A stretch of 64,000 nt of DNA from Desulfovibrionales bacterium (GTDB lineage: Bacteria > Desulfobacterota > Desulfovibrionia > Desulfovibrionales > Desulfovibrionaceae). Below the pieces are notes generated by a model that made no database searches, was not told where the DNA came from, and worked only from the letters and a program-made list of their open reading frames with translations. The stretch covers positions 1 to 64,000 of the forward strand of contig JASGMV010000010.1 in NCBI GenBank assembly GCA_030156255.1, read 5' to 3'. The position numbers were made by a program, and so were the translations under genes. This document shows, in pieces, positions 34,400-60,796 of the stretch (position 1 is its first letter; each line of letters opens with the position of its first letter).

Positions 34400-36556
34400 A
34401 TGATGGATACCAGAGGCGCCAGAACCCTACAACAGGCGGCCGCTCCAGCGGCCGCCTACACCGCCGCCGAACTGGGCCAATTGCTCGGTATGACCAAACG
34501 AGGCATGAATCATCGTGCTACCCGCGAAGACTGGCTCCATAGGCCGCGCCAAAGCAACGGTGGCGGACGCGAGTACCCCTTCGGGACACTACCCGAAGAT
34601 ATCAAGCTGGCGATCATTTCCAAGCTCGCGGAATCCAAGCCACGCCCTCAGCCCCTGCCCCAGGATCTGGACGAGCGCAGCCGGGACCGGGCGCTGTGCC
34701 GGATTATGATCCTGCGGTTGTTCGACGCTTGGCGCGCGTCCCGCCCGGACCTCAAAAACACCGAATCGCGCACGCTGTTTTGCGCGGCCTACCGCGCAAA
34801 TGAGATCGAAAACACGCCGGACTGGCTGCGGGCCGGGCTGCCCCGCGTATCCCCTAACTCGCTCCTGAACTGGCGCGCGGCCCTGGATAACGGCGGGGCC
34901 GCGCGCCTGAGCGGGAGCTACGGCAAGCGCCGCGGGCAGCGGCGCATCAGCAGCGACCCCGAAGTGGTCGACCTCATCCGCGGGCTGCTCTACAAACACC
35001 CGCAAATTTCTTGCAATTCCATCCTGGAGGCGCTCACGGCCCGGCTACCAGAGGACCGGGTGCCGGCCGAGCGCACGCTCAACCGCTGGGTGGCCGAGTA
35101 TCGGCGCGAGCATGAGTCCCTGCTGTTGAGCGTCGCCAACCCGGACGGCTGGCGCTCCAAGTGTTTGGCGGCCACGGGCGACGCCTCGGCCCATGTTATC
35201 CGCCTCAATCAGGTGTGGGAGTACGACTCCACGGTCGCGGACGTGATGCTGGCGGATAACCGCCGCCATGTGATTGTGGCGATCATAGACGTGTACTCCC
35301 GCCGGGTCCGCTTCTTGGTGAGCCGGTCCTCCAAAGCCAGCGCCGTTGCAGCGTTGACGCGCCGGTGCATGCTGGAGTGGGGCGTGCCGGAGATCGCCAA
35401 GACGGACAACGGCTCGGACTACGTCAGCCATCACATGCAGCGCATTTTCGGCGAGCTTGGCATTGACCAAAAGCTTTGCACACCGTTTCAGCCCCAACAG
35501 AAGCCGCATATCGAACGAGTTTTCAAAACATTCTTGCACGGTACGTTTGAACTGCTTGACGGGTTTGTGGGTCATAACGTCATTGACCGCAAGGCTATTG
35601 AGAGCCGTCGGTCATTCGCTGCGCGGCTTCGTAAGAAAAAATACAAGGACACGCCCGTTGAATTACGGTTGACGGCCGAAGAGTTGCAGTCGTTTTGCGA
35701 CGAATGGGCTGTCAATATGTACGAACGCCGGGAGCACGGCAGCCTCGGCATGTCGCCCATGCAGCGGGCGGCCGGGTGGACCGGGCCTGTGCGGCGCATC
35801 GAAAACGAACGCGCCCTGGACGTGTTGCTGCGCCCCGCGCCCAGCCAGGACGGCTGGCGCACGGTGGGCAAAAAAGGCGTCCAGGCGGGCTATTATTACG
35901 ATCATCCCTCCTTGCGGGTCGAAGCGCTGGTTCCCGGCGGCCGGGTGCGCGTACTCCTCGACGAGACCGACGCCGCGCGGGTGACCTGCTTTAACGAGCG
36001 CGGCGAGTGGGTGTGCGACGCCATTTGCCCCGAGCTGGCCGGCGTCTCCCGCGAGGAGCTGGCCGCGGCGGTCAAGCGGGCGCAGAAAAAAGCCCTGGCG
36101 GAGGACCGCAAAGACCTGCGCGGCGCGGCCAAGCGGGCGCAGGTGGACACGATTTTGACCGACATCCGGCGCAAGGCGGCGACGGACGCGGCCAAGGTGA
36201 CGCCGCTCCCTCACCGGTCCGAATCCTACTCCACTCCGGCTCTCGAAGAGGCGGCCCGCGCGGCGGACGCGGGCGCAACGCCTAAGGCCGCCCCACTGAC
36301 CGAAGCCCAGCAAAAGTCACACGAGGAATTGGTGCGGGAACTGGCCGGCGGTGGGGAGCGGGTTGTCCAGTTGCCGCCCATGAAGGACGAACGCAAAGCC
36401 CGGTTTCTGAGGGCTTGGCGCATCGAACAGCGCATTGAGGCCGGCCAGGCCGTGGATACCGAGGAGGCCCTGTGGCTCGGGAGGTATCAAGCTACTCCGG
36501 AATATAAGTCGATGCGCGGAATTTTTGAAGATTTTGGTGTGGAAGCCTTTAACTGA
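34400..36556 (+). CDS. MuA-type DDE transposase
   Basis: This 718-residue protein inserts and replicates the phage genome by transposition. The N-terminus has Mu-type DNA-binding helices (YTAAELGQLLGMTKRGMNHR, a winged-helix MerR/Mu domain). The catalytic rve core shows Asp276 in VWEYDSTVAD, Asp336 in KTDNGSDYV and Glu372 in KPHIERVFK, the DDE triad with 35-residue spacing. The C-terminal region is basic and alanine-rich and should contact MuB. It is read from the early operon, 14 bp before the ATPase gene. Confidence 0.95.
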   Translation: MMDTRGARTLQQAAAPAAAYTAAELGQLLGMTKRGMNHRATREDWLHRPRQSNGGGREYPFGTLPEDIKLAIISKLAESKPRPQPLPQDLDERSRDRALCRIMILRLFDAWRASRPDLKNTESRTLFCAAYRANEIENTPDWLRAGLPRVSPNSLLNWRAALDNGGAARLSGSYGKRRGQRRISSDPEVVDLIRGLLYKHPQISCNSILEALTARLPEDRVPAERTLNRWVAEYRREHESLLLSVANPDGWRSKCLAATGDASAHVIRLNQVWEYDSTVADVMLADNRRHVIVAIIDVYSRRVRFLVSRSSKASAVAALTRRCMLEWGVPEIAKTDNGSDYVSHHMQRIFGELGIDQKLCTPFQPQQKPHIERVFKTFLHGTFELLDGFVGHNVIDRKAIESRRSFAARLRKKKYKDTPVELRLTAEELQSFCDEWAVNMYERREHGSLGMSPMQRAAGWTGPVRRIENERALDVLLRPAPSQDGWRTVGKKGVQAGYYYDHPSLRVEALVPGGRVRVLLDETDAARVTCFNERGEWVCDAICPELAGVSREELAAAVKRAQKKALAEDRKDLRGAAKRAQVDTILTDIRRKAATDAAKVTPLPHRSESYSTPALEEAARAADAGATPKAAPLTEAQQKSHEELVRELAGGGERVVQLPPMKDERKARFLRAWRIEQRIEAGQAVDTEEALWLGRYQATPEYKSMRGIFEDFGVEAFN

Positions 36557-39908: not shown

Positions 39909-40109
39909 ATGGATCAAAACAGGATTCTCGAAAAATTGCGCGGCGTCAGTCGAGCCACGCTGGCTACGTATACAGCAAGGGCTATCGCTGACTTGCCTGT
40001 GCATCTGCAGCCGCAGGTCATTGATATGCTGCGCGAGCAGCACGACAAGACGCGACGTGGGCGCGCCGTCGCGCGGGCGCACCGAGTTATGGGAGGCTCT
40101 CATGGGTAG
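39909..40109 (+). CDS. Small hypothetical protein before the helicase gene
   Basis: This 66-residue basic helical protein (ILEKLRGVSRATLATYTARA, ending KTRRGRAVARAHRVMGGSHG) overlaps the start of the DnaB gene by 8 bp. That coupling, and its size, suggest a possible helicase loader or partner, but no motif proves it. Confidence 0.55.
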   Translation: MDQNRILEKLRGVSRATLATYTARAIADLPVHLQPQVIDMLREQHDKTRRGRAVARAHRVMGGSHG

Positions 40110-41487
40110 CCCCGCCGCCCGCCGCCCCTCCGGCCCGCCTCCGGGCCATCCGGCCGACCTGTTGCGCAAGCTCCCGCCCCAGAACCTCGAAGCCGAGCAG
40201 GCCGTGCTGGGGGGCGTGTTCCAGCATCCAAAGTCGTTTCACTCCATCGTCGACATCATCACCGCAGAGGACTTCTACTCCCCGGCCCACCGGAAAATTT
40301 TCCAGGCCTTCCTCGACCTCTACAACAGCTCCACGCCCATCGATCCGGTGACGGTCCATGACCGTCTCGCCTCCGCGGGCGATCTGGCGGCCGCGGGCGG
40401 GCCGGCCTATCTCGTGGAGCTGGGCGGGTCCGTGGTCACCTCGGCCAACGCCGTTTTTCACGCGGGCATCGTCCGCGACAAGTCCACCCTGCGCCGGCTC
40501 ATCGACACGGCCGGCGGCATCATCTCCCGCTGCTACGAGGCGCGGGACGTGGACGAGTTGCTGGATACGGCCGAAAAGGACATCTTCGAGATTTCCGACG
40601 CCAAGAGCCGGACACCCATGGTTTCGGCGGGCCAAGCCATTGAGACCGTCTTTGAGCGGCTTGCAGAGAGGGCCAAGCAACACTCTGCCTGTACGGGCGT
40701 GCCCACGACGTACAGTCGCATGGACGAACTGACCGCCGGCCTCCAGCCGTCCGACCTCATCATCATCGCGGCCAGGCCCAGCATGGGCAAGACCTCCTTA
40801 GCGCTGAACATCGCCCTGCGCTCGGCCGTGCACCACGGGACGCGCACAGCCGTCTTCTCCCTGGAAATGTCCACCGAGCAGCTCATCCAGCGCATGCTGT
40901 GCACCTTCGGCAAGGTCGATCTCGCCAACATGCGCCGGGGCTTCCTGGACGACGAGGACTGGACCAAGCTCTACGACGCGGCGCAATACCTGTCCGGCGC
41001 GTCGATCTTCATCGACGACACGCCGTCGCTCACCACGCTGGAGCTGCGGGCCAGGTGCCGGCGGCTCAAGGCCGAGCACGACATTCAGCTCGTCATCGTG
41101 GACTATCTCCAGCTCATGCGCGCAAGCCGCAACATCGACTCCCGCGAGCAGGAAATTTCCGACATTTCGCGCACGCTCAAGGCCATCGCCAAAGAGCTGA
41201 ACATCCCCGTCGTCGCCCTTTCCCAGCTCAACCGCAAGGTGGAGGAACGCTCCGACAAACGCCCCATGCTCTCGGATTTGCGCGAATCAGGGGCCATCGA
41301 GCAGGACGCAGACGTCATTTGCTTCATCTACCGCGACGAGGTCTACAACAAGAAGGACGACAACCCGAAGCGGGGCGTGGCCGAGATCATCATCGGCAAG
41401 CAGAGGAATGGTCCCGTGGGTGTGTGCAGTTTGGCGTATCTGGCGCCGTACACGGCGTTTGAAGAACTCAACCAAGGAGGCGAGTAG
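40102..41487 (+). CDS. dnaB: Phage-encoded replicative DnaB-type helicase
   Basis: This 461-residue protein has the complete DnaB layout: an N-terminal helical domain (LPPQNLEAEQAVLGGVFQHP), a linker helix, and a RecA-like motor with Walker A ARPSMGKTSLALN (Lys230), FSLEMSTEQLIQRML, Walker B VIVDYLQLM and VVALSQLNRKVEERSDKRP. The ATG at 40102 has GGGAGG upstream. It unwinds DNA ahead of the replisome. Mu itself has no such gene and uses host DnaB, so this is an unusual addition. It sits in the early operon and is probably expressed with the transposition proteins. Confidence 0.93.
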   Translation: MGSPAARRPSGPPPGHPADLLRKLPPQNLEAEQAVLGGVFQHPKSFHSIVDIITAEDFYSPAHRKIFQAFLDLYNSSTPIDPVTVHDRLASAGDLAAAGGPAYLVELGGSVVTSANAVFHAGIVRDKSTLRRLIDTAGGIISRCYEARDVDELLDTAEKDIFEISDAKSRTPMVSAGQAIETVFERLAERAKQHSACTGVPTTYSRMDELTAGLQPSDLIIIAARPSMGKTSLALNIALRSAVHHGTRTAVFSLEMSTEQLIQRMLCTFGKVDLANMRRGFLDDEDWTKLYDAAQYLSGASIFIDDTPSLTTLELRARCRRLKAEHDIQLVIVDYLQLMRASRNIDSREQEISDISRTLKAIAKELNIPVVALSQLNRKVEERSDKRPMLSDLRESGAIEQDADVICFIYRDEVYNKKDDNPKRGVAEIIIGKQRNGPVGVCSLAYLAPYTAFEELNQGGE

Positions 41488-48264: not shown

Positions 48265-49799
48265 GCCGCGGTCTCTATCTGCCTAACGGGGAGTTTCGCG
48301 AGTTTGCCGCTGAGGCGGCGCCGCGCCGCCAGGAGATGCTGGCCGAAATCGCCACGCGGGAGGCGGCCGGCGTCGATCTGGCGGGCTGGCTGGGCGTGCT
48401 GCCTGACCCGGACCCGGTGTTGCGCAAACGCGGCGATAGCGCCGAGATCCTCACCGAGCTAACGGGCGATGACCAAGTCTTTATGGCCCTGCAGGACCGT
48501 AAGTCCAAGACCTTGGACCGCGAATGGCGTCTCACGCCCGGCGCGCCCGCCGGCGAGCAGCCCACCCCGGCCGCCGAGCAGCTCTGCAAGAATTTTGCCC
48601 GCGACCTGGAGGACCTCGACCTGCACGCGCTGATGAGCGAGCTGCTGGACGCTCCGTATTTCGGCCTGACCGTGGCCGAGTTGATGTGGGCGCCGGATGG
48701 CGGGCGCATGCGGCTCACGGCCGTGACGCCCAAGCCGAGGCCTTGGTTTGGGTTTTCCGGTGATGACAACCACCTTGTTTTTCTGCGCTTGGGGACCTGG
48801 CCGGGCGAGCCGTGCTCGCCGTTTAAATTCCTGGCCGCCCGGCATTTCCCTTCGTTCGATAATCCCTACGGCTCCCGGGCGCTCAGCCGCTGCCTGTGGC
48901 CCGTGGCGTTCAAACGCGGCGGGTGGCAGTTTTGGATGAATTTTTTGGAAAAATTCGGGCAGCCGTGGACCGTCGCCACGGCGCCGGACAATACGGACCG
49001 CGCCAAGCGCCGGGACATAGCCGCGGATTTGGCGGCCATGGTCCAGGATGCGGTGGCCGTGCTGCCCTACGGCGCCGAGGTGGATCTCAAGGAGTCGTCC
49101 GGCAAGGCCGGGGACGCTCATCGACAGCTGATCAACCAATGTGACGCCTCCATCGCCAAGGTGCTCCTTGGGCAGACATTGACCTCGGATAGCGGGGACA
49201 AGGGCAGCCGGGCGCTGGGGACGGTGCATTATCAAGTCCTTGCGGGCCTCCAAAATAGCGACGCCCGGCTGGTCAGGACGTTTTTTGAGGATTTGGGCTG
49301 GATCTACGGCCGGGTCAACGCCGGGCCGGACGTGTTGACGCCCTGCTGGGAGTGGGTGGAGCCAGAAGATTATGCGGCTCGCGCCGATCTGGACGGCAAG
49401 CTCAAGGGGCTGGGCGTGAGGTTCCGCAAGCCCTATTACGTCCGGGCCTATGGTCTGGCCGAGGAGGACTTCGACTTGGAGGGAGGAGGTGAAGCCGAGG
49501 CTTTGCCAGCCGGCGACCATGCGGCCTTTGTCGCCTCCTCCGGGGACCCGGCGCAGGCGGCCGTCGATAGTCTGGCCGACGGCTTGGCCGATGAGGCGGC
49601 CGCGGCTATCCAGTCCAACGCCCGCGAGATCCAAGACGCCATCAACAAGGCCGAGTCGTATGAGGACTTGATGATCTTGTTGGCCGAACTGCTTGGCCGG
49701 GACATGGATACGGACGATCTGGCGGATGTGGCCCATCGGGCCATGCTCAATGCCGCACTCCACGGCACGGCCAGCGCGAGGGGGGACGGCAATGGCTGA
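48261..49799 (+). CDS. Portal protein, DUF935 (Mu gp29-like)
   Basis: This 512-residue protein matches the DUF935 portal family: LPDPDPVLRKRGDSAEIL, QDRKSKTLDREWRLTPG, and AVAVLPYGAEVDLKESSGKA. Twelve copies would form the ring through which DNA enters the head. The C-terminal 100 residues are acidic and alanine-rich. It overlaps the zinc-finger gene that follows. Confidence 0.92.
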   Translation: MSRGLYLPNGEFREFAAEAAPRRQEMLAEIATREAAGVDLAGWLGVLPDPDPVLRKRGDSAEILTELTGDDQVFMALQDRKSKTLDREWRLTPGAPAGEQPTPAAEQLCKNFARDLEDLDLHALMSELLDAPYFGLTVAELMWAPDGGRMRLTAVTPKPRPWFGFSGDDNHLVFLRLGTWPGEPCSPFKFLAARHFPSFDNPYGSRALSRCLWPVAFKRGGWQFWMNFLEKFGQPWTVATAPDNTDRAKRRDIAADLAAMVQDAVAVLPYGAEVDLKESSGKAGDAHRQLINQCDASIAKVLLGQTLTSDSGDKGSRALGTVHYQVLAGLQNSDARLVRTFFEDLGWIYGRVNAGPDVLTPCWEWVEPEDYAARADLDGKLKGLGVRFRKPYYVRAYGLAEEDFDLEGGGEAEALPAGDHAAFVASSGDPAQAAVDSLADGLADEAAAAIQSNAREIQDAINKAESYEDLMILLAELLGRDMDTDDLADVAHRAMLNAALHGTASARGDGNG

Positions 49800-49998
49800 T
49801 GACGCCGATCGCGCCCAGGCGGCCATGGAATGGCAACTCCGGCTCGCGCTTGCGGCCCGGCGCGGCGCCGGCCCTGTTGGCGAGTCCCTCGCCTGTTGCG
49901 AGGCGTGCGGCGCGGCCATCCCCGAGGCCCGGCGGCGGGCCGTGCCCGGCGTCCGGCTATGCGTCAGCTGTCAGCAGGAGGCTGAGGATGCCGGTTAG
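49792..49998 (+). CDS. Small DksA/TraR-type zinc-finger protein
   Basis: This 68-residue protein has a C4 zinc finger CCEACGAAIPEARRRAVPGV followed by CVSCQ, the DksA/TraR pattern, after a short helix (AAMEWQLRLALAARRG). TraR-like proteins bind RNA polymerase and mimic DksA with ppGpp. It lies between the portal and gpF genes and overlaps both (8 and 11 bp). Confidence 0.75.
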   Translation: MADDADRAQAAMEWQLRLALAARRGAGPVGESLACCEACGAAIPEARRRAVPGVRLCVSCQQEAEDAG

Positions 49999-51274
49999 CA
50001 TCGAGGCGCTCCAGCCCAAGGAAGCCCTGGCCTACTGGCGGGACAAGGCCGCCGTCTCGGACTCCGCGTTCCGGCGGATGGACAACGTCACCCGCTCCCG
50101 AGCTTTTGCGGTCTCGGGCATGTCCCAGCTGGATCAGGTTGGGCGGGTCATGGCCGCCGTGCATGAGACATTGGCGGAAGGCAAAAGCCTCGGGAAATTC
50201 AAACAAGAGGTCGCTCCGCTTTTGATGGACGAACTCGGCCTCTCGCCCACGGTCGCCCGGCGCAAGGCCGAGTTGATCCTACGCACCAATTTGCAAAGCG
50301 CCTACATGGCCGGCCGGTACACGCAAATGATGGAGGCGGCCGAGGCCCGGCCGTATTGGCGTTATGCGGCCGTAGGCGACGCCCGCACTCGGCCCAGCCA
50401 TGCGGCCCTGCACGGGACCGTTCGCCGGTATGACGACCCGTTTTGGGGTCAATTTTATCCGCCCAATGGGTTCGCATGCCGCTGCACGGTCCAGACGCTC
50501 TCTGAGCGCCAGGCCGCGGCGCGCGGCATTGAGGTCGGCCAGGGCGTCCCGGATCGGCTGCTGTACAAGGACCCCAAAACCGGCATGGAGCACTGGGTTA
50601 CGCCCATGCCGGACGCGGGGTGGAGCGGCAACGTCGGGCAAGACTGGTTGGCCGGGCTGGCCCCGACGTTGGACGACGCCAAGCTGCAATCCATGCCCGG
50701 CGCGCACGTGTGCCCGCAGGGCAACGGCCAACACGCCGCGCCGGCCTGCTGGCTGCCGCTCGACCAGGTGGAGGAGCGGCATATCCGCAAGATTGCGGAC
50801 GGCGACATCCTTCCCGCCGGCAAAACGCAGGTGTCCTACATCGGCGCCTTTCTGGACGAGTTCGGGCTCAAATTCGGGCAGAGCAAAACGATCAACCTGC
50901 CAGGCGTGGGCAGTCCGCTAGTGATCAGCGACCGCCTGTTTTTGGACAAACGCACCAATACCTACAAGATCACCAAGGGCGGCCGGGAGCGGTACGCCAC
51001 GCTGTTGGCCCGCACCATCCTGGACCCGTGGGAGATATGGATGAGCCCGGCCAGGACCGGCGGCAAGCCCGTCGCCGTGCTCAATCTTTTTCGGCTGTTT
51101 GCGGACAAGAACGGCAAGGTGGGCGGGTTCGCGGCGTTCCGCCTCTATGGCCGCCAGTGGCAGGGGTCGACGGTGTTTGTTCCGCAGGGAAACGAACAGC
51201 GCATCCTGAAATACCTGGAGGAACAACGGCTGGAGATGAACAAGGCAGGCGTGCTGCTCTACCGGGAGCCATAA
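49988..51274 (+). CDS. Head morphogenesis protein gpF-like with C-terminal nuclease-like domain
   Basis: This 428-residue protein starts with the Mu gpF/SPP1 gp7 head morphogenesis domain (ILRTNLQSAYMAGRYTQMME, YWRYAAVGDARTRPSHAALH, FWGQFYPPNGFACRC). From about residue 320 it carries a separate domain (TNTYKITKGGRERYATLLAR, ILDPWEIWMSPARTG, GSTVFVPQGN, GVLLYREP) that resembles the PBECR-type nuclease-like tails known on phage head proteins. The tail may be injected to act in the new host; this is inference. Confidence 0.85.
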   Translation: MPVSIEALQPKEALAYWRDKAAVSDSAFRRMDNVTRSRAFAVSGMSQLDQVGRVMAAVHETLAEGKSLGKFKQEVAPLLMDELGLSPTVARRKAELILRTNLQSAYMAGRYTQMMEAAEARPYWRYAAVGDARTRPSHAALHGTVRRYDDPFWGQFYPPNGFACRCTVQTLSERQAAARGIEVGQGVPDRLLYKDPKTGMEHWVTPMPDAGWSGNVGQDWLAGLAPTLDDAKLQSMPGAHVCPQGNGQHAAPACWLPLDQVEERHIRKIADGDILPAGKTQVSYIGAFLDEFGLKFGQSKTINLPGVGSPLVISDRLFLDKRTNTYKITKGGRERYATLLARTILDPWEIWMSPARTGGKPVAVLNLFRLFADKNGKVGGFAAFRLYGRQWQGSTVFVPQGNEQRILKYLEEQRLEMNKAGVLLYREP

Positions 51275-57967: not shown

Positions 57968-58282
57968 ATGGCGGAAGAAACGAAAAACACGGAAGCACAG
58001 GCGTACACGGCCTTTGATCACTCTTTTGAGGACCGCTTTTCCGGGGGCGACACCGTGGCGGTGTCCTACCGTTTCCGGCGGCCGACGCCTCAGGAAGTGG
58101 GACGGGCGCAGAAGCAGGTGCTGAAGGACAGCTCCCAGGCCATGCGCAACCTCTGCATCGGATGCGTCCATGCGGAGGACAAGGCCAAAATGGTGGCGGA
58201 CTTCGAAGCCTATCCCGGCCTGCCCGTGACCATGGGGACGGCTATTTTCGGGTCCATCGGGGTGGGCAGCTTGGGAAACTGA
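57968..58282 (+). CDS. Tail assembly chaperone, short form (gpG-type)
   Basis: This 104-residue protein lies between tube and tape-measure genes, the fixed place of tail chaperones. It has YRFRRPTPQEVGRAQKQVLK and ends SIGVGSLGN just before a UGA. The last sense codons form a GGGAAAC slippery site, so a fraction of ribosomes should shift into the next frame and make a longer form. Confidence 0.8.
   Translation: MAEETKNTEAQAYTAFDHSFEDRFSGGDTVAVSYRFRRPTPQEVGRAQKQVLKDSSQAMRNLCIGCVHAEDKAKMVADFEAYPGLPVTMGTAIFGSIGVGSLGN
58273..58279 (+). other. Predicted -1 ribosomal frameshift site
   Basis: GGGAAAC stands in the reading phase G-GGA-AAC immediately before the stop codon at 58280-58282. It fits the X-XXY-YYZ rule. 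Slipping back one base gives CTG-ATG-ATC and joins the following reading frame. Lambda uses GGGAAAG in the equivalent gene pair. Confidence 0.8.
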
Positions 58283-58473
58283 TGATCCAGGCCCGGCAGG
58301 GCCTGGATCAGAGCCACGTCGAGCAGTACATGGCGATGATCCAACACTGGCTGCACGAGCGGCCGTCCAATGATCCCGAGCGATTCTCCAATCAGGCGGC
58401 CCAGGCGGTCTGGTTGGAGAAACGGTATTGGGAGACGATGAGCAAGATCATGGGAGCATCCGGCCGTGGATGA
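58282..58473 (+). CDS. Tail assembly chaperone extension (gpT-type)
   Basis: This 63-codon frame continues from the short chaperone after a -1 shift and reads MIQARQGLDQSHVEQYMAMI and PSNDPERFSNQAAQAVWLEK. It is probably translated as the C-terminal part of a fusion of about 169 residues, which links the chaperone to tail subunits during assembly. It also has its own ATG overlapping the stop. It overlaps the tape measure start by 8 bp. Confidence 0.75.
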   Translation: MIQARQGLDQSHVEQYMAMIQHWLHERPSNDPERFSNQAAQAVWLEKRYWETMSKIMGASGRG

Positions 58474-60796
58474 GGTTTTTGCGGTCTTCGCAAGCTTCCA
58501 GCTGATCGACATGATCAGCGGGCCGTTGCGGGGCATCAAGGCCGCCATGGGCGCCACCCAGGCGGCGGCCGGCAGGCTGTCCGCCGGCGCCGCCGCGCTG
58601 ACCAAAAAACTCTTGCCGTTGGCGGCGGCCGCTGGCCTGCTGCTCATGGGGCTGGCCGGGCCGGTCAGGACGGCGGCCGATTTTGAGCAATCCATGTCCG
58701 CGGTGGGCGCGGTGTCGCGCGCATCCACAGAGGAGATGGCCACGCTGGAGCAGGCCGCTCTGTCGTTGGGGGCCTCCACGGCCTGGTCCGCCTCCCAGGT
58801 GGCCGAGGCGGAGAAATACCTCGCCATGGCGGGGTTTAACGTCCAGCAAAACGTGGCGGCGCTGCCGGGGGTGCTCAACCTTGCTAGCGCCGGCAATACC
58901 GATCTGGCGCGGACTGCGGATATAGCCAGCGACATCTTGAGCGGCTTCGGGTTGGAGGCTTCGCGCATGAGCGAGGTCGCCGATACCCTGACCGTCGGCA
59001 TTACCACGGCCAATACAAATTTAGAGCTGCTCGGCGACACCATGAAATATGTGGCGCCGGTGGCCTCGGCCGCCGGGATGTCCCTGGCCGAGGCCACGGC
59101 CATGGCCGGGCTCTTGGGTAATGTGGGCATCAAGGGTAGCCAGGCCGGCACCACGCTCCGGGCCATGCTGGTGCGGTTGGCTGCGCCGGCGGCCGAAGGC
59201 GCGGCCACGCTCAAACGGTTGGGCGTGTCGGCCGCGGACGCCACCGGCGCGCTCCGGAGCCCCATCGCCGTGCTCGGCGACATGGCTCAGGCCATGGAGG
59301 GCATGGGTTCGGCCGATCAACTGGCCGCCATCAGCGACGTTTTCGGACAGATTCCCATGGCCGGCATGTCTGAGCTGATCAAACAACAAGGCATGGGCGG
59401 CATCACCAAATACCTCGCGGTGATCAAGGATTCCGCGGGCGCGGCGGCGGACGTGGCCGGCCGGCAGCTCGACAATCTCAAGGGCGTTATCACCATTCTG
59501 GGCAGCGCCTGGGAGGGTCTGCAGATCACCATCGGCAAGGTGTTTTTGCCGGTTCTCAAACCGCTGGTGTCGGCTGTCGCCACGGCCGTGAGCTGGTTTA
59601 ACGCTCTGGCCGGGACGGCTGTGGGCAAATTCATTATCGGCCTAGTGGGGGTGCTCGCCACAGGCGTGTTGGCGATCACAGCAATGACGGCCGCCGCTTG
59701 GGGACTCTCCGCGGCGCTGCCGTTTGTCTCGACGGCCCTGGCCCCGGTTGCCGGGCTGGTGGCGGCCATCAGTTGGCCCGTGTGGCTGGTCATCGCGGCC
59801 GTCGGGGCGCTGTTGGTGGCCTTTAAGACCAATTTCGGCGGCATCCGGGATTTTGTTTTGGGCTGGTGGAATAGGGTCAACTTGGTCTTCCAGGGGGTGC
59901 GGGCCGTGTTTGCGTCGCTCAAGGGCGGCGCCGGCGAGCTGTCGGGCGAGCTGCGCAAGAGCCTGGAGGCCGCCGGGCTGGTGGGCGTGGTGACCGCCAT
60001 CTCGCGCGTCATCTACCGTCTGCAACAGGTTTGGTCTGGAGTCGTCGCCGGGTTCGGCGCGGCGATGGACGGGATCGGCGATGCGTTTACTCCGCTGCTG
60101 GCGCTGGGCGATGCGTTTACACCGCTCCTGGACGCCTTGAGCGAGGTGGTCGCCATGCTCTTCGGCACCGCCGGCGCCACGGATGTTTCGGGCTGGCGGC
60201 TCTTCGGCCAGGTCATCGGCGCTGTTGTGGGCGGGGCGTTTCGCATTTTGGCCGTGGCTGTTCGCGTGGCGCTGACGCCCATTGAGATCCTGCTCAAGGT
60301 TATCCGGACCATCGGGCAGGTGCTTAATGGCGAGATCGACCTCTTTGAGGCCGGCCGGGCGCTGGTGATGACGTTTGTGGACGGCATCAAAAGCGTCATT
60401 ATGGCCCCGGTGGAGCTGCTCAAAAGCGGCCTCGGCAAGTTGCGGGAGCTGCTGCCTTTTTCCGACGCCAAAACAGGACCGTTGAGCACGCTGACCTTGT
60501 CCGGACAGCGGCTCACCGAGACATTCGGCGCGGGCATTCAGCGCGGCGCCGGCGGCCTGGCCGGCGTCATGGAGTCTGCCTTGAGCGGAGCCATGCCGGG
60601 TCCGGAGCTGGCGCTCGCCGTGTCCGGACCTGCCCCCGGCGCCGCGGCCGGTTCGGGCAAATCTCGGGCGTCCGTTCAACAGACCGGCCGGCAAGTGGTC
60701 ATCCAAAATCTCACCGTCAATTTGCCCGGCGTCGGTAGCGCCAGTGATTTTGTGACGCAACTCCAGCAACTCGTGGAGGGCTACGATGGCGACTGA
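58466..60796 (+). CDS. Tail tape measure protein
   Basis: This 776-residue protein starts at GTG and has the TP901-type tape-measure core: MSAVGAVSRASTEEMATLEQ, STAWSASQVAEAEKYLAMAG and MSLAEATAMAGLLGNVGIKG. Several hydrophobic helices lie in the middle (KFIIGLVGVLATGVLAITAM). Its length sets tail length, which should be relatively short. A short internal repeat (GDAFTPLLALGDAFTPLL) is visible near 60090. Confidence 0.92.
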   Translation: MDEVFAVFASFQLIDMISGPLRGIKAAMGATQAAAGRLSAGAAALTKKLLPLAAAAGLLLMGLAGPVRTAADFEQSMSAVGAVSRASTEEMATLEQAALSLGASTAWSASQVAEAEKYLAMAGFNVQQNVAALPGVLNLASAGNTDLARTADIASDILSGFGLEASRMSEVADTLTVGITTANTNLELLGDTMKYVAPVASAAGMSLAEATAMAGLLGNVGIKGSQAGTTLRAMLVRLAAPAAEGAATLKRLGVSAADATGALRSPIAVLGDMAQAMEGMGSADQLAAISDVFGQIPMAGMSELIKQQGMGGITKYLAVIKDSAGAAADVAGRQLDNLKGVITILGSAWEGLQITIGKVFLPVLKPLVSAVATAVSWFNALAGTAVGKFIIGLVGVLATGVLAITAMTAAAWGLSAALPFVSTALAPVAGLVAAISWPVWLVIAAVGALLVAFKTNFGGIRDFVLGWWNRVNLVFQGVRAVFASLKGGAGELSGELRKSLEAAGLVGVVTAISRVIYRLQQVWSGVVAGFGAAMDGIGDAFTPLLALGDAFTPLLDALSEVVAMLFGTAGATDVSGWRLFGQVIGAVVGGAFRILAVAVRVALTPIEILLKVIRTIGQVLNGEIDLFEAGRALVMTFVDGIKSVIMAPVELLKSGLGKLRELLPFSDAKTGPLSTLTLSGQRLTETFGAGIQRGAGGLAGVMESALSGAMPGPELALAVSGPAPGAAAGSGKSRASVQQTGRQVVIQNLTVNLPGVGSASDFVTQLQQLVEGYDGD

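Follow-up and report, generated by a model that had tools for sequence, protein, structure and literature searches.

Mu-like prophages of Desulfovibrionaceae very probably carry in their tail module a programmed -1 ribosomal frameshift of the lambda G/GT type, as judged from sequence comparisons, by which a short tail-assembly chaperone would be produced in two lengths. Mechanisms of this kind are known from lambda and from many other phages, and what is new is the example in the Mu-like prophages of this bacterial family. In the literature searched, no report of this Desulfovibrionaceae frameshift family was found, nor any mention of DUF6848, the domain of the short protein.

Tail module and predicted frameshift site

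The window, i.e., the whole stretch of 64,000 nucleotides that was analyzed, contains a Mu-like prophage, recognized by profile matches to phage families (Table 1). A DnaB-like replicative helicase ORF (40021-41487) has the MuA-like transposase on one side and the head genes on the other, and the gpF-like head protein (49799-51274) has a PBECR2 nuclease domain at its C-terminus. The short chaperone ORF and its extension are located between the tail tube and tape measure genes, as the first-pass annotation of this DNA had stated and as is the case for a G/GT pair; the match of the tube protein to Pfam Phage_tube_2 is below the cut-off. The GTG start of the tape measure gene overlaps the end of the extension.

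Table 1. Positions in the window of the prophage features discussed here.
Feature	Position	Strand	Match or remark
MuA-like transposase	34400-36556		
Prophage head and tail genes: Mu-type portal, gpF, gp36, gpS homologues, major capsid protein E, DUF2586 tail sheath, tail tube, tape measure			
Tail tube protein, 142 aa	57509-57937	+	phrog_4579 tail protein, E 2.4e-43; precedes the chaperone gene
Short tail-assembly chaperone (G-like, DUF6848), 104 aa, zero frame	57968-58282	+	PF20941, E 9.9e-13; phrog_20303, E 3.7e-23
Slippery heptamer G GGA AAC, putative -1 shift site	58273-58279	+	Sequence; relatives
Zero-frame UGA abutting the heptamer (58280-58282) and second in-frame UGA (58283-58285)	58280-58285	+	
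ATG overlapping the stop	58282-58284	+	Sequence; judged incidental
Perfect 12-bp RNA hairpin with GGCA loop, candidate stimulator	58283-58310	+	3 nt after the heptamer
-1 frame extension (T-like, DUF6890-related), 64 aa	58279-58473	+	PF21830, E 3e-5
Tail tape measure protein	58466-60796	+	PF10145, E 2.1e-50; phrog_1533, E 1.5e-103

The short ORF terminates with TTG GGA AAC TGA. Its zero-frame codons GGA (58274-76) and AAC (58277-79) make G GGA AAC a canonical X XXY YYZ heptamer in the correct phase, and the earlier placement of this motif directly before the UGA is accurate to the base. Following a -1 slip, translation would resume at CTG (58279-58281) and could run for 64 codons, to 58470, before the stop at 58471-58473. 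The -1 fusion predicted in the first-pass annotation is upheld, and its length is corrected from about 169 residues to 168 (104 + 64). The -2/+1 frame shuts after 31 codons in the window and the conserved domain sits in the -1 frame, which is not the arrangement of a Mu-type -2 shift. The window contains 10 copies of GGGAAAC, and 10.6 are expected by chance. The heptamer alone therefore proves nothing, and the case depends on its conservation in relatives; what is unusual about this copy is its position, phase and conservation, not its occurrence.

All 31 short proteins of an alignment of relatives (A5) match DUF6848, while DUF6890 was recognized in 9 of 30 extensions; W, L, E and R residues of the extension are conserved in a further alignment (A2). 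In a comparison of 720 aligned chains, the structural model of the short protein (pLDDT 84.5) has its best fold match in another DUF6848 protein, RBSTP2171 (3FGX, Z 13.2), followed by weak matches to YqbN (3KLU, Z 4.8) and to the HK97 tail assembly chaperone (2OB9, Z 4.7). The predicted fold may be tail-chaperone-like, the similarity being clear for 3FGX and weak for YqbN and the HK97 chaperone. The extension is modeled as two helices forming a predicted helical hairpin (pLDDT 85), and it has no match to solved structures by sequence. The first-pass annotation spoke of two tail chaperones joined by the shift; the joining is retained, but the pair is better described as one chaperone in two lengths. 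DUF6848 and the DUF6890-like extension would thereby gain a coherent function, as the proposed halves of a single frameshifted tail chaperone that gene callers would show as separate or missing genes.

Conservation of the site and of its reading frames

Relatives were sought in 348 genomes of the same order, 395 genomes of the same phylum, GTDB contigs and viral contigs. Single-protein scans of viral contigs and phages with the window protein as the query gave no matches, and a broad alignment (A1) proved too heterogeneous for pattern scanning; relatives in viral contigs were obtained with a narrower alignment. At less than 90% DNA identity, the non-redundant set comprises 45 relatives, the window included. 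They come from Desulfovibrionaceae, from other families within the phylum and from viral contigs, and their proteins diverge down to about 30% identity. A homologue with an identical site is present in D. piger ATCC 29098, and other strains of D. piger that carry Mu-like prophages have yielded particles on induction (PMC12724379).

The alignment of the heptamer across relatives, which had been put forward both as a check and as a possible refutation of the frameshift, came out in its favor. The motif G GGA AA[C/G]-stop is found at the end of the short ORF in 41 of the 45 relatives, and 42 of the 45 encode the extension domain in the -1 frame, counts that do not represent independent trials because the relatives share descent. 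The last codon of the heptamer is AAC in 36 of the 41 and AAG in the other five. The tail-chaperone shift site of lambda is GGGAAAG.

The four relatives without this motif are L039, L040, L041 and L084. Two distant ones, L039 and L040, have a different canonical -1 heptamer, A AAA AAG, one codon further upstream. In L041 (G489:C104), also distant, the -1 frame is open downstream and the sequence reads CTG GGG AAG CAG TAG, with no canonical heptamer. In the metagenomic L084, a small deletion near 2375 explains the absence of both heptamer and stop without joining the frames; this deletion may be genuine natural variation or have arisen during assembly. Elsewhere, L062 keeps the heptamer and is rearranged just downstream, and the frame of L027 is disrupted further along the extension.

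The codon usage at the site indicates that the heptamer is conserved beyond what the protein sequence requires. Its glycine is encoded by GGA in all 31 members tabulated by codon, in which the other conserved glycines use GGC, GGG, GGT and GGA alike, and GGA accounts for only 8% of the glycine codons in the structural genes of the phage and 11.5% in the rest of the short ORFs of the relatives. The base that precedes GGA is G in 41 of 41 relatives having the heptamer. It belongs to a CTG or TTG codon in most, and to CCG or GCG in the L024/L028 lineage, in which the amino acid has changed from Leu to Pro or Ala and the third-base G has not. Between close pairs, substitutions at codon positions 1, 2 and 3 number 45, 37 and 247 in frame 0 before the site, and 44, 38 and 128 in frame -1 after it. 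As read from these substitution patterns, coding constraint changes from frame 0 to frame -1 at the heptamer.

Downstream RNA, stop codon and alternative routes to the extension

RNA folding downstream of 58282 had been suggested as a check in the first-pass annotation, and it revealed a feature missing from that annotation. Directly 3' of the stop, nucleotides 58283-58294 pair perfectly with 58299-58310. The 61-nt fold has an energy of -32.2 kcal/mol (z -5.2) and was equaled in stability by none of 200 shuffled sequences; a second estimate for the same region gave z -4.4. Compared with codon-synonymous versions that keep the protein, the stability of the hairpin is also unusual (p = 0.018). 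In the same synonymous-codon test, the downstream RNA reaches p < 0.05 in 11 of 32 relatives, about a third, and a universal downstream hairpin was rejected on that count. Strong stems unrelated in sequence are found in L006, L024, L019 and others, and the changes between the stems of L024 and L028 preserve pairing as G-U; the well-populated clade of L008, L010, L014 and L017 has no downstream stem by minimum free energy. A stimulatory structure is therefore likely in the window but does not belong to the signal in all relatives. Upstream of the heptamer, the best match to AGGAGG in the relatives is mostly 3/6, which gives no support to a Shine-Dalgarno-like stimulator.

A stop directly follows the heptamer in all 41 relatives with GGGAAA[C/G], and its identity varies (UGA in 22, UAG in 13, UAA in 6). 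Were this stop lost, the next zero-frame stop would lie within 20 codons in 28 of the 41, so that its loss would often be mild, which suggests, without proving it, that the position of the abutting stop is under selection.

The ATG that overlaps the UGA in the window had been taken in the first-pass annotation as a second possible way to make the extension, as a product of 63 residues. The window phage might use both routes, with the -1 fusion accompanied by a little free extension from a fortuitous ATG. This reading draws on the exact overlap seen in the window, and it appears rather unlikely: the ATG is found only in the window among the 45 non-redundant relatives, its U and G take part in the basal pairs of the hairpin, which would mask it, and to our knowledge a free T domain has no known use. 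Far less probable still is that the extension is exclusively a separate protein, made by termination-reinitiation at UGAUG with no fusion. Although this arrangement is common for coupled genes, the -1 frame of 28 of 41 relatives lacks any start codon within 30 nt of the site, the sequence preceding the ATG is a poor Shine-Dalgarno match, and separate initiation would not conserve GGA and the G before it. Separate initiation is, on these comparisons, not a conserved route to the extension, and the ATG is best regarded as incidental.

Two further alternatives fare worse. Transcriptional slippage, which could be envisaged at the runs of identical bases GGG and AAA, is very improbable as the source of the long form: the known cases require long A or T runs, whereas the longest run at the site is 3, and the strict codon phase and the abutting stop suit slippage of tandem tRNAs. 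That the two frames are a single gene broken by an indel, through decay or sequencing error, with a heptamer present by chance as its frequency across the window would allow, can practically be dismissed, since 41 of 45 relatives are interrupted at an identical base, both flanks are under coding constraint, and no intact single-frame homologue lacking the heptamer was found, the deletion in L084 leaving the frames unfused.

Proposed mechanism and comparison with other phages

In the proposed -1 frameshift, the majority of ribosomes would decode GGA AAC and terminate at the abutting UGA, yielding the 104-residue chaperone, whereas a minority would slip by -1 on G GGA AAC, re-pair on GGG AAA and translate 64 further codons, yielding the 168-residue form with its predicted helical C-terminal domain. 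In the window phage, the immediate stop and the 12-bp hairpin 3 nt downstream probably increase slippage. By analogy with lambda, the domain common to both forms would form a coat on the tape measure protein and tube subunits would be recruited by the extension, with a fixed ratio of short to long forms expected to matter for tail assembly.

In the A_AAA series, the AAG form is reported to be much shiftier than the AAC form in E. coli (PMC5009743). The host of the window phage encodes both tRNA-Lys(UUU) and tRNA-Lys(CUU), and the latter could explain the preference for AAC, since after the slip AAA would be a poor partner for a dedicated CUU tRNA. Among 20 hosts, tRNA-Lys(CUU) is present in 15 of 16 with AAC and in 2 of 4 with AAG, although divergent tRNAs may have been missed; this association is a trend that does not reach significance (hypergeometric p of about 0.09). 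A more tentative “slip-or-stop” proposal, which we consider possible but on balance doubtful, is that the abutting stop is a fixed part of the signal and that slow termination, while Asn-tRNA occupies AAC in the P site, drives the slip. If true, it would explain both why the position of the stop is fixed while its identity varies among UGA, UAG and UAA, and why AAC is used where the host itself encodes tRNA-Lys(CUU).

Tailed phages differ in the direction of their shift, which may be -1, -2 or +1 (PMC5009743). The system described here resembles lambda gpG/gpGT, the mechanism of which is covered in PMC5009743. The pair sits between tube and tape measure genes, the -1 shift, predicted in the prophage, is placed close to where the first ORF ends, and the site is of the G GGA AAN form. 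It differs in that no sequence similarity was found, AAC is usual and the stop abuts the heptamer; in addition, lambda is a siphophage, whereas the prophage has a contractile, sheathed tail. The g-t shift site reported for the haloarchaeal virus HCTV-1 is the same G_GGA_AAC, also for a tail chaperone, but in an archaeal siphovirus (PMC5009743).

Among transposable phages, Mu resembles the prophage in its head and transposition genes and in the gene position, but its tail-assembly genes use a -2 shift (PMC5009743, PMC4378225), in contrast with the predicted -1 shift and the DUF2586 sheath of the lineage described here. A -1 shift in tail-assembly ORFs has been predicted in the D3112 group, in P. 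aeruginosa PaMx73, at a T TTT TTC that lies 43 codons before the stop, in a phage with a siphophage tail (PMC4378225). No shift site is evident in KS10 (PMC2628397).

In Faecalibacterium phage FP_Mushu (L042:3899-4467), which represents another lineage in the same family, gp38 and gp39 are annotated as two genes. The heptamer at the equivalent place is A AAT TTG, and no stop interrupts the -1 frame of the second ORF across it, which makes an unannotated -1 frameshift likely. Similar tail modules are found in Thermus phage Riverbug (L158:5326-5791) and Meiothermus phage MMP7 (L157:5366-5834), in which the open frame of the second-ORF homologue is +1/-2 and not -1. Their overlaps hold UUU_C (GAT TTT CGG and CGA TTT CTG, respectively), where a +1 shift may occur. 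Shift direction thus varies among transposable phages and their relatives, from -2 in Mu to the predicted -1 in the lineage described here and apparently +1 or -2 in the Thermus and Meiothermus pair.
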